A stretch of 64,000 nt of DNA from Choricystis sp. odSpoLacu1 (Eukaryota; Chlorophyta; Trebouxiophyceae), in contig OY253651.1 of the NCBI GenBank assembly GCA_958009055.1, positions 1-64,000 on the forward strand, in the 5' to 3' direction. Shown here in pieces: positions 1 to 9,381 of the stretch. How positions within the stretch are numbered: the first letter of the stretch is position 1; the number at the start of each line of letters is the position of its first letter. Both the position numbers and the translations under genes were made by a program. The notes beneath the pieces were generated by a model. It worked only from the letters and a program-made list of their open reading frames with translations, searched no databases and was not told the origin of the DNA.

Positions 1-383
1 ACCCTAACCCTAACCCTAACCCTAACCCTAACCCTAACCCTAACCCTAACCTAACCCTAACCCTAACCCTAACCCTAACCCTATCCCTAACCCTAACCCT
101 AACCCTAACCCTAACCCTAACCCTAACCCTAACCCTAACCCTAACCCTAACCCTAACCCTAACCCTAACCCTAACCCTAACCCTAACCCTAACCCTAACC
201 CTAACCCTAACCCTAACCCTAACCCTAACCCTAACCCTAACCCTAACCCTAACCCTAACCCTAACCCTAACCCTAACCCTAACCCTAACCCTAACCCTAA
301 CCCTAACCCTACCCCTAACCCTGACCCTGACCCTAGCCCTACCCTAACCCTAACCCTAACCCTAACCCTACCCCTAACCCTGT
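1..383. repeat. Telomere, (CCCTAA)n, left chromosome end
   Basis: Tandem CCCTAA units run from the first base, so the G-rich strand is TTAGGG pointing outward at the left end. The array is nearly perfect to about 308, with one short unit (CCTAA) near 50 and one CCCTAT near 83. From about 308 to 383 it degenerates into variants (CCCTAC, CCCTGA, CCCTAG) before unique sequence. That proximal-variant pattern is typical of a true telomere base. Confidence 0.98.
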
Positions 384-5874: not shown

Positions 5875-7026
5875 TTAGGCACGCGCGAGCGCAGCACGCA
5901 GTGCACCTGCGTGCCGGCTCCCCTCCCACACGCTTTCCGTGCCTCCAGCCGCAGCCTGCATGACCCGCAACACAGACAGCACGTGGGCCACACCCTGCAA
6001 CCACCGTGCCACGTAGGGGTGGGTCGCCGCGTCGGCGCCATGCTGTGCGGCGGCAGCACACACAGCCGTCCACGACTCGCGAGCGGCCTCCAGCTCCACA
6101 CACGTTGCATTAACCAGGGCAGCCCAGGCGGGCAGCGGTGGGTAGGGAATGGAGGCGGGGGACGGGTTGGCCGCGGGCGGGGGCGATGGCGTGCGTGCTG
6201 GTGGCCACGGCGAGGCGGCAAGGAGGGGGGGGGACGGCGTTTCTGCCGGCGGGGCTACTGCTGACGGGACCACAGCCCCGCCCTCAAACTCGTCCCACTC
6301 ATCGTCGGAGCCAGGCGCAGGCGGAGAGGGTGAGTGAGGAAGGGTGTCGGCAGCAGCGTCGTCGGCTGCCGCCGCCTTAGTGCTCCCTGCATCGTCGACG
6401 TCAGCATTGTCGGCGTCCAGCACTGGCTTGGCGTCGTCGACACCAGCAGGCATCGCGCCATCGTCACCAACCGACGCCATGCTGGCCGCCTTGTCGTCGT
6501 TTCCACCAACCACCACCTCCTCCTCCACCACTGCCGCCTCAGCAAACAGGTCATCCGGCAGCGCCTGCCCCGCGGGCACCAGTTCAGCCACCGCGATGGC
6601 GGCGGGGGCTTGTGTCCACCCATCGGGCGGCGTCCAGGGGGTGGGAGTGGATGTGGCGGGTGCGGCGGTCGGTGTGTCGGCAGCGCCGTCTCCATCGCCC
6701 ACGTGCACGCCCGCCAGGCGGGACACGATGTCCACGCCTTCAAAGTCGCCAAAGGTGTCGTCTTCTGGGGTGGATGCGGCGGCAGGCGCGCCAACCGCCT
6801 CCAGTTTGAGTGGCGGCGGCGGAGGTGCCACGTGGGGGCTGCTGATCCCGTCATCCGCCGCACCTCCGCCCTCGAAATCTCCAAACTCGTCATCGCCATC
6901 ATCAGCATCATCCCCACCATCAACAGCAGGCTGCGCAGCCCTCGCCACGCTCGCACTCGTGCCCTGCGCGCTGTCCTCGCCACCACCCTCAAACGCGCCC
7001 CACTCGTCGTCGCTGGACAGCGCCAT
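5875..7026 (-). CDS. Aftiphilin-like clathrin/adaptor-binding protein
   Basis: One exon of 383 aa from the ATG at 7026 (MALSSDDEWGAFEGG). The protein is mostly acidic and disordered, with four spaced acidic-aromatic peptides: DDEWGAFEGG (residue 6), DDEFGDFEGG, DDTFGDFEG and DDEWDEFEGG. Such (D/E)FGDF and WxxF peptides are gamma-ear and AP-2 ear ligands, as in aftiphilin and gamma-synergin. The C-terminal 100 residues are folded-looking, with Trp and Leu (RWLQGVAHVLSVLRVMQ), consistent with the clathrin-binding box of aftiphilin. Between them lie Pro/Ala/Thr-rich linkers. The inferred role is cargo sorting at the trans-Golgi network or endosome. The call rests on motif pattern and length, not on a full domain match. 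An extra 3' exon is possible. Confidence 0.65.
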   Translation of the reverse strand: MALSSDDEWGAFEGGGEDSAQGTSASVARAAQPAVDGGDDADDGDDEFGDFEGGGAADDGISSPHVAPPPPPLKLEAVGAPAAASTPEDDTFGDFEGVDIVSRLAGVHVGDGDGAADTPTAAPATSTPTPWTPPDGWTQAPAAIAVAELVPAGQALPDDLFAEAAVVEEEVVVGGNDDKAASMASVGDDGAMPAGVDDAKPVLDADNADVDDAGSTKAAAADDAAADTLPHSPSPPAPGSDDEWDEFEGGAVVPSAVAPPAETPSPPLLAASPWPPARTPSPPPAANPSPASIPYPPLPAWAALVNATCVELEAARESWTAVCAAAAQHGADAATHPYVARWLQGVAHVLSVLRVMQAAAGGTESVWEGSRHAGALRAALARA

Positions 7027-7262
7027 GCGACGGGTGTGGCAGGTGGTGAGGGGGGCGATGGATCGGCCGCCTTCTCGGGGGAGGTGGCCGGTTTCGGGTG
7101 CGGGCGCCCGTGATTGGGGAGCGTGTGTTTTTCTGCTGTCCGACGACCGCCCCACCTCTCTCTCGGCTCGGAAACAAGACAGAGAAATGACACGAGCCGC
7201 GCCAACTCATACACCAAAGAAACACACACCAACACACACACACACACTCCTCCCTCGCCTCA

Positions 7263-8069
7263 TCACACCGCCCCCCCCGACTCGATCTGCTCAATTTCGG
7301 CGTCCGTCAACACGCGCGACCTGGACAGTTTGGTGCCCCTCTCCCGCCCGATGTAGAGGCCGCCCCGGCCCGCGCTCAGGCGGGCCAACAAATTCTCACC
7401 GTCATCCAGGTCGCGGGCGGCGGCCTGGGCCGAGGCGGGCAGGGAGGAGATGCGCGTGCCCGCGGTCGACACGCGGCGCGGGAAGCGGATAGAGGGGCGC
7501 CGGTGGTGGGTGGCGGAGGTGGTGACGACAGGAGCAGACGCTGATGATGGTGGTGGTGGCGGCGGCGGCGGCGGTGCAGCAGCAGCACCAGCAGGAGCCT
7601 CTGGTGGCTGCGCCGCCGCGGGCACCGCAGGCTCCACCACGACAGCCCCCTCCTCCCCTTGCTGCAGCACCACCACCAACTGGCCCACCACCACGCTGTC
7701 GCCTTCGGCCACCAGCACGGAGGTGACGACGCCGGCGGACGGCGCGCGCACGTCGACTGTGACTTTGTCAGTCTCCACGCTGGCCAACACCGCGTCCTCG
7801 GCGACCACGTCCCCCGGCCTGACGTGCAGGGTCGCGATGGCGCCCTCACTGATGGATTCGCCCAGGGGGGGCAGCCGCACCTCGAGTGGGGCGTGCGCGG
7901 ACGAGGGTGGCGTGGCGTGGAGGGTGCGGCGCAGGGTGGCACGGTGGACGCCGACAGCGGCGGCCGCCGCCAGGGGGTTAGTGTGTGCAGCAGACAGCAC
8001 AGGCAGCGGCCCTGCGGTCAGCAGAGGGCGCAGCAGGGCGCGCGCCAGGCGGCGCGCGGAGGGGCGCAT
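7263..8069 (-). CDS. Lipoyl domain fused to KGD4/MRPS36-like tail (2-oxoglutarate dehydrogenase complex), mitochondrial
   Basis: A single exon of 268 aa from the ATG at 8069. The N-terminus (MRPSARRLARALLRPL) is a strong mitochondrial presequence. Residues about 60-135 form an E2-type lipoyl domain with LPPLGESISEG and the lipoyl-lysine motif VETDKVTVDV. A Pro/Ala linker follows. There is no E3-binding domain and no acyltransferase core. The last 85 residues instead resemble KGD4/MRPS36, the subunit that recruits E3 (lipoamide dehydrogenase) to the E2 core of 2-oxoglutarate dehydrogenase: RRPSIRFPRR near its start and RVLTDAEIEQIESGGAV at the end, like the conserved C-terminus (yeast Kgd4 ends ELESINSGGAW). 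The lipoyl call is secure; the KGD4 match is from memory of the family. A full-length E2 gene should exist elsewhere. Confidence 0.8.
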   Translation of the reverse strand: MRPSARRLARALLRPLLTAGPLPVLSAAHTNPLAAAAAVGVHRATLRRTLHATPPSSAHAPLEVRLPPLGESISEGAIATLHVRPGDVVAEDAVLASVETDKVTVDVRAPSAGVVTSVLVAEGDSVVVGQLVVVLQQGEEGAVVVEPAVPAAAQPPEAPAGAAAAPPPPPPPPPSSASAPVVTTSATHHRRPSIRFPRRVSTAGTRISSLPASAQAAARDLDDGENLLARLSAGRGGLYIGRERGTKLSRSRVLTDAEIEQIESGGAV

Positions 8070-8470: not shown

Positions 8471-9381
8471 TCACGGCAACACCTCCCCCGTCTTCAGCAG
8501 CACGCGCACCTTCTTGCCATCCACCTCCTTGTGCCCCACCCGAGACCGCACCTCCTTCTCTTTGGAGTAGTGCATCACGTTGGACGCGTTGACGGGCGAC
8601 TCGCTCGTCACCAGGCGCCCCGTCTCGTCGCGCGACTTGGGTTGCACCGTCTTGGTCTTGACGTTGACACCCTCGACGACGACCATGCCGCGCTTGGTGA
8701 GCACTTTCTGGACGACACCCACTTTGCCCTTGTCGGTGCCGGTGACCACTTGGACGGTGTCCCCCGTCTTGACGTGCACCTTTTGGAAAACGGGCTTGCC
8801 GTTGGGGGTGAGGGGCGTGTTCTCCCACTTTTTGCCGGGGCCCTGGTGATGGTGGGGAGGGGAGGGGGGGAGGGGAGGTGTGGGAGGCTGCGCAACAAGA
8901 AGAGGAGGGCGTTCGGGTGCCCTTCTCTCCCTCTTCTCTCTCCCGCATTCCCAAAACACTCACAATGGCGGACGCGCGCACGACGACAGACGCAGCACGG
9001 GCAGGCTGTGTGGATGGGTGTGGGGAGAGGGAAGACACGGTGAGCCAAAACCAAACCAAAAACCAAGCGGCGGCCCGCCACAGCGTTGCGAGAGCGAAGC
9101 GGGGAGTGGTGCTCGCCGGCCTCGCCCGGCGCTGCAGCCTCCTCCTGTACCACCCACAACGCGCATTGTGGCTTGGCGTGGCTGCAGCGGTGGATGGAAG
9201 CAGAGGAGGGCGGCAGCACGAGGCGCGGGGAGGCGGGCACAGGACGCTCCAGCCGCCTGTCCAGCGAAACCTCCGCGGCTGCCCTCTCTCGGCGCACTCT
9301 CGCGCATTGTCCCCCCATCTCACGCACCCTGCGCGCGGCTGGCGCCACGCCGGCAAGGCGGGTGCCGGCAAAGGACGACAT
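8471..9381 (-). CDS. RPL24: Plastid ribosomal protein uL24 (L24), nuclear-encoded precursor
   Basis: Large-subunit protein of the plastid ribosome, an early 23S rRNA assembly initiator. Three exons (9381-9328, 9005-8964, 8842-8471) join in phase 0 to give 155 aa. The first two encode a transit peptide (MSSFAGTRLAGVAPAARR, then an Ala/Val/Arg stretch). The mature part has the KOW motif region (VHVKTGDTVQVVTGTDKGKV), then GVNVKTKTV, and a plant-chloroplast-like tail with NVMHYSKEKEVRSRVGHK and KTGE. That tail distinguishes it from mitochondrial L24. The gene is usually plastid-encoded in red-lineage plastids and nuclear in green ones, so it is useful phylogenetic evidence. Confidence 0.95.

Follow-up and report, generated by a model that had tools for sequence, protein, structure and literature searches.

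Within the window, a 64,000-nucleotide stretch of DNA from the green alga Choricystis sp. odSpoLacu1, one gene (7263..8069, minus strand; a single open frame of 268 amino acids and a stop) encodes a protein in which a lipoyl domain is fused to a tail resembling KGD4/MRPS36, a subunit of the 2-oxoglutarate dehydrogenase complex (OGDHC). The chain runs from a presequence-like start through one E2-type lipoyl domain and a Pro/Ala linker to an 80-residue KGD4-like tail, and on the sequence evidence set out below we regard this architecture as real and conserved. From it we infer lipoylation and two contacts of the tail, and we consider it fairly likely that the protein is a lipoyl-bearing, KGD4-like E3 adaptor of the OGDHC, which would be anchored by its GG end, hold E3 at an IRFP motif and carry lipoate on Lys102.

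A preliminary description of this DNA had proposed an open frame with a lipoyl domain, a Pro/Ala linker and a KGD4-like tail at this place, and translation and Pfam searches confirm it. Residues 1–50 (7920..8069, minus strand) have a presequence-like composition, with eight Arg/Lys and no Asp/Glu; the first acidic residue of the protein is residue 63, and an RRTLH motif lies at 47–51. R-x-L-H is present in the relatives P0002, P0003 and P0005 and absent from P0004, and by eye RRTLHATPP in the window protein and RALFHASPP in the E2o of the same genome each stand upstream of the lipoyl domain. Given this composition, the protein is presumably targeted to the mitochondrion. The Pro/Ala linker (residues 138–189; 7503..7658, minus strand) is evident from the sequence and is of low confidence (pLDDT blocks 42–52) in an AlphaFold model of the single chain, which was built from a 21-row alignment (A4) and has a mean pLDDT of 66.4 and a pTM of 0.38; blocks in the lipoyl domain reach 88–96 and those in the N-terminal motif region of the tail 79–88. 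The absence of a catalytic core, also claimed beforehand, holds up: among the seven Pfam families matched by the whole protein at E ≤ 10 there is neither E3_binding nor 2-oxoacid_dh, that is, neither a PSBD (PF02817) nor an E2-like catalytic core (PF00198), while the C-terminus is kept in relatives and the five E2 cores of the genome sit elsewhere. Splicing of this frame as an exon onto an acyltransferase core, which had been named as a possible refutation, finds no support, as the protein ends at its conserved C-terminus. Four relatives (P0002, P0003, P0004 and P0005; 92, 77, 62 and 60% identical) share this layout and end in GGAV or GGAM, and the common order and common end argue that the fusion is not an accident of assembly.

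The lipoyl domain (residues 61–137; 7659..7889, minus strand) is of the E2o type as judged by Pfam, AlphaFold, Foldseek and its identity to E2o. In the Pfam scan of the whole protein, PF00364 matches residues 63–135 with 68.1 bits (E 5.8e-19), and the fold includes the expected acceptor lysine of a DK pair, Lys102 in ETDKVT (7764..7766, minus strand), which bears out the E2-type domain with a lysine in VETDKV that had been described from the letters; Lys102 is the predicted lipoylation site. Foldseek ranks two integrative E2-chain models first, both at rmsd >20, and places 1ghj, an OGDH-complex lipoyl domain, third (rmsd 1.9, E 4.0e-6). With the E2o lipoyl domain of its own genome the window's domain shares 54% identity, versus 24–39% with five other E2 lipoyl domains of that genome, and in nine other fusions that we compared E2o was again the nearest lipoyl domain, at 43–59% identity. 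A lipoyl-domain tree has long branches, with one of its 13 inner branches well supported, and cannot show a single clade or a point of split from E2o, so that we use the identity contrast alone.

Both KGD4/MRPS36 ends are present in the tail, PSIRFPRR first and then a C-terminal LTDAEIEQIESGGA stretch. The N-terminal motif, RRPSIRFPRRVSTAGTRISSLP (residues 190–211; 7437..7502, minus strand), is the expected E3 contact, has a single match in the genome and is colinear with PLIRFPDRR of human MRPS36. Between the motifs lies a predicted helix (residues 212–233; 7371..7436, minus strand) that is variable in relatives and along which confidence declines (pLDDT blocks of 83 down to 47). The C-terminal motif, SRSRVLTDAEIEQIESGGAV (residues 249–268; 7266..7325, minus strand), is the expected anchor on the E2o core and includes a short helix in the AlphaFold model (256–263). 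Residues invariant throughout the 21 rows of alignment A4 (I194, F196, P197, R199, G204, S208, G265 and G266) cluster at these two ends, with the variable middle between them. Mammalian MRPS36 is likewise conserved at its N- and C-termini, and by published cross-linking its N-terminus contacts E3 and its C-terminus the E2o core (PMC9974300); by this likeness the tail would hold both contacts. The protein had been cast beforehand as an E3BP-like recruiter for the OGDHC whose tail brings in E3, and the architecture supports such a recruiter, but the role of the tail needs correction from E3 alone to both contacts.

Profile evidence for the tail is colinear and modest. The excised window tail scores 14.2 bits with PF10937 (E 0.14; profile positions 98–116 of 116), and 0.14 divided by the 24736 models searched is about 6e-6 for one model named beforehand; the curated cut-off of the family, 22 bits, is reached neither by this tail nor by the best algal protein, P0058 (15.4 bits, spanning profile 7–116). 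P0067 (14.8 bits; residues 178–269 on profile 30–116) and P0052 (14.6) score similarly, and PF10937 was matched by three of 27 tail sequences at E ≤ 1 and by three of nine algal proteins at E ≤ 10; it was not matched at E ≤ 10 by the whole window protein in the Pfam scan or by the unfused-looking P0053. The family gave no match across the genome, and the control genomes likewise gave none. Conversely, human MRPS36 scores 15.9 bits against an HMM built from 28 algal tails, its alignment beginning at the IRFP motif and extending to the GG end, while the best of 10,000 shuffled sequences (5,000 each of the human and yeast proteins) reaches 9.6 bits. When the same HMM was run on 1,920 sequences, comprising 1,914 stop-to-stop frames from the window and loci (many of them overlapping), the gene copies and the human protein, five gene copies ranked first, human MRPS36 next and the best decoy at 7.6 bits. 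The human sequence used here itself passes PF10937 (25.8 bits). Yeast Ymr31 is weaker, with 4.0 bits from the C-terminal GGA stretch alone, and hhalign to human MRPS36 is short, covering 17 columns at the C-terminus (probability 21%, E 0.0011). No KGD4 chain turned up in the PDB by sequence search, whether the query was the tail, its profile or human MRPS36. A reading of the tail as a degenerate PSBD found no support when hhalign was run against the four E3-binding domains of the genome (probability 0.1%, one column). A lack of any profile similarity, which would have counted against the preliminary description, is thus not what we see: the similarity is weak and below the cut-off, but above chance, colinear and present in both directions. 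Being modest and below Pfam's curated cut-off, it leads us to call the tail 'KGD4-like' rather than a formal Pfam member, and the tail is probably homologous to KGD4.

The host genome (14.6 Mb, 19 contigs) has 26 places with the chlorophyll a/b-binding family, one of which, compared with the PDB, finds its best matches among the chlorophyll a-b binding chains of LHCI and LHCII, in keeping with a green alga. Genome-wide we found five E2 cores, four E3-binding domains and fifteen biotin/lipoyl matches; two of the last (contig C3, 740454–740657 and 759962–760165) have an identical score and lie 19.5 kb apart, probably as a recent duplication or an assembly duplicate. The E2o, on contig C2, has no E3-binding domain and the other four E2s carry one each, so that the statement that eukaryotic E2o lacks this domain is true of this host. 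The C2 core has a lipoyl domain of its own ahead of it, by sequence of the E2o type, but lipoyl domain and core change frame across a run of 15 C (L001 1467–1481; C2, ~815546–815560), probably a homopolymer length error; otherwise the E2o would be split. We rejected the idea that the E2o is armless and that the fusion supplies its arm in trans, as a recognisable lipoyl domain is still present. Two E1o-type C-terminal domains and four Pyr_redox_dim places were found, with E3 expected among the latter. A second KGD4-like tail was not found in the genome, where an incomplete assembly or an intron-split copy could hide one; five weak candidates (L027, L028, L029, L033 and L034) were set aside, none showing both motifs by eye. 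The suggested search of the genome for a separate KGD4 and a full-length E2o thus gave no separate KGD4, and an E2o whose lipoyl domain and core were both found, but in shifted frames.

The fusion is more than a peculiarity of one genome, as it might have seemed from the window. Protein searches gave P0002–P0067, which with the window protein (P0001) make 67 sequences, and P0006 and P0060–P0067 show the same domain order at greater distance. The N-terminal motif occurs in 34 of the 67, the window protein included, and HMM searches find a lipoyl domain in 15 of these 34: full in 13 (P0001–P0006, P0060, P0061 and P0063–P0067) and partial in two (P0055 and P0062). All 15 keep [ED]TDKVT, and they fall into four divergent groups (P0001–P0005; P0006 with P0060–P0066; P0067; and P0055). 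Two of the searches admitted long proteins only (in one, ~211 to 672 amino acids), favouring fusions, and a third, which added 52 new proteins of 45 to 185 amino acids, excluded whole fusions; the counts are biased by these admission lengths, and 15 of 34 should not be read as a frequency. The other 19 sequences with the motif start within 89 residues of it, too close for a whole lipoyl domain and its linker (~55–60 residues) to fit, though part could, and at the start of P0008, P0052 and P0057 one can make out by eye what resembles the last part of a lipoyl domain. P0053 (141 amino acids), with a presequence-like stretch ahead of its KGD4-like motifs, may be an unfused KGD4, and the remaining 33 sequences, C-terminal pieces that lack the N-terminal motif, are probably single exons. 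The window's host alone is identified as a green alga, and the hosts of the relatives, judged by similarity, are presumably green algae as well. As would be expected of KGD4, which is known from eukaryotes only, no relative of the tail was confirmed among 339 pattern matches in a prokaryote genome collection or among 234 in viral contigs.

If the protein is an adaptor of the kind we favour, its C-terminal GG helix would anchor it non-covalently to the E2o core, and the IRFP motif would hold E3 in place of the PSBD that the host's E2o is missing. Lipoylated at Lys102, the adaptor would bring an extra swinging arm to the very E3 that it holds; the lipoate would reach that E3 and the active sites of neighbouring E2o subunits, and the arm could feed dithiols to E3 and exchange electrons or succinyl groups with E2o lipoyl domains. 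We put forward more tentatively, as a possibility we would not favour at present, that green-algal OGDHC has two classes of arm, those of E2o and that of a lipoylated KGD4, placed next to the E3 that it recruits and relaying reducing equivalents from E2o lipoyl groups to the few E3 dimers; recruitment and re-oxidation of E3 would then be coupled on one removable subunit. The fusion may also illustrate how the E2-like order of lipoyl domain, E3-binding part and core-binding part was rebuilt from pieces after the eukaryotic E2o lost its PSBD.

How far the lipoyl domain matters to such a role can be questioned. It might be structural or regulatory, unlipoylated or idle, in what would be a KGD4 with a spare domain from an E2o duplicate, and since E2o has its own lipoyl domain another arm is unneeded on stoichiometric grounds; retention of the acceptor motif in every fusion across divergent groups makes this rather unlikely. 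The partner is a separate matter. A lipoyl domain does not by itself fix its complex, and E3 is normally common to several, such that the protein could recruit E3 for the branched-chain or mitochondrial pyruvate dehydrogenase, or be a free lipoyl carrier like the glycine-cleavage H protein. We think this highly improbable, given a lipoyl domain nearest to that of E2o (54% against 24–39%), a tail that resembles the OGDHC adaptor, and a genome in which the four other E2s have E3-binding domains of their own and E2o has none.

The reading of the tail as KGD4-like can be doubted as well, its IRFP and GG motifs being then convergent or due to chance in an algal lipoyl protein with another function. 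The sub-threshold PF10937 matches throughout, the near-absent match to Ymr31 and the 17 columns of hhalign all lean that way; against them stand a pair of motifs that keep their order on either side of a variable middle, the forward and reverse profile tests, the E2o type of the lipoyl domain, and a genome whose E2o is without an E3-binding domain and in which no other KGD4 was found, and we hold non-homology to be very unlikely. An artefact, be it two genes joined by the assembly or a decayed E2o copy, deserves next to no credence: the assembly does have at least one apparent homopolymer problem (the 15-C run of the E2o), but the fusion occurs in one frame in other sequence sets, its ends are conserved and its frame is open without a stop. 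A lipoyl-bearing E3 adaptor of the OGDHC remains the reading that we prefer.

Such an adaptor would resemble several known proteins in part. With KGD4/MRPS36/Ymr31, the E4 subunit of the OGDHC, it shares both end-motifs in order (IRFP...; ...LTxxEIxxIxxGGA), a presequence-like start, the lack of a confirmed prokaryotic relative and a genome whose E2o has no E3-binding domain; but KGD4 as described is a small adaptor that has no carrier domain, and here an E2o-type lipoyl domain and a linker are added before the KGD4-like part. Like E3BP (protein X) of the pyruvate dehydrogenase complex, it is a non-catalytic chain with a lipoyl domain, a flexible linker and a presumed part in E3 recruitment, and its lipoyl, E3-binding and core-anchoring parts would follow each other as they do there; unlike E3BP, it matches neither PSBD nor core, and core anchoring would use a short helix. 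By analogy it would work as E3BP does, but as PSBD and core were both searched for without a match we do not count it in the E3BP family. Bacterial E2o (lipoyl–PSBD–core) offers the same order of lipoyl domain, putative E3 contact and putative core contact, and the same lipoyl type as 1ghj; in the fusion, however, the core contact would be non-covalent and the E3 contact a KGD4-like motif. In Chaetomium thermophilum, KGD4, named E3BPo, sits N-terminally in a protein annotated as holocytochrome c synthase (passages of PMC10203282), which is again KGD4 within a longer frame, but one whose other part carries a cytochrome c synthase annotation, with no lipoyl fusion mentioned in those passages.

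The preliminary description knew of no described example of a lipoyl–KGD4 fusion, and we too found no report of one in titles, abstracts and passages of the mainly open literature, so that the architecture is undescribed as far as we have searched. The portions consulted of PMC7050145, PMC8146983 and PMC13311838 mention no such fusion, the words plant, algae and Arabidopsis are absent from the main text of PMC9974300, and PMC4584976 was a false match to sample labels. KGD4/MRPS36 has only recently been assigned as the holder of E3 in eukaryotic OGDHC after loss of the PSBD, and with dissent: its role is disputed, which weighs against the adaptor reading, and a review reports OGDHC activity in human cell lysates to be no higher when MRPS36 was co-transfected (passages of PMC8146983). 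A natural fusion to a lipoyl domain is evidence from genomes, and independent of earlier work, that KGD4 occupies a position in which a lipoyl arm has to act. It points to algae having assembled a subunit resembling E3BP out of other components, and would place one more candidate among the few mitochondrial proteins that are lipoylated. As a single chain, it also lends itself to structural work on a flexible adaptor.

The gene lies ~7 kb from the end of its contig, which is probably a chromosome end, and CCCTAA telomere-type repeats occupy window positions 1–380 at the contig start. Its upstream neighbour on the same strand (8471–8959, minus strand) is by eye like ribosomal protein uL24. On its other side, a 426-residue open frame (5875–7155, minus strand) contains four acidic W/FxxF stretches (DDEWGAFEGG, DDEFGDFEGG, DDTFGDFEGV and DDEWDEFEGG), which resemble motifs of clathrin-adaptor ear-binding proteins.
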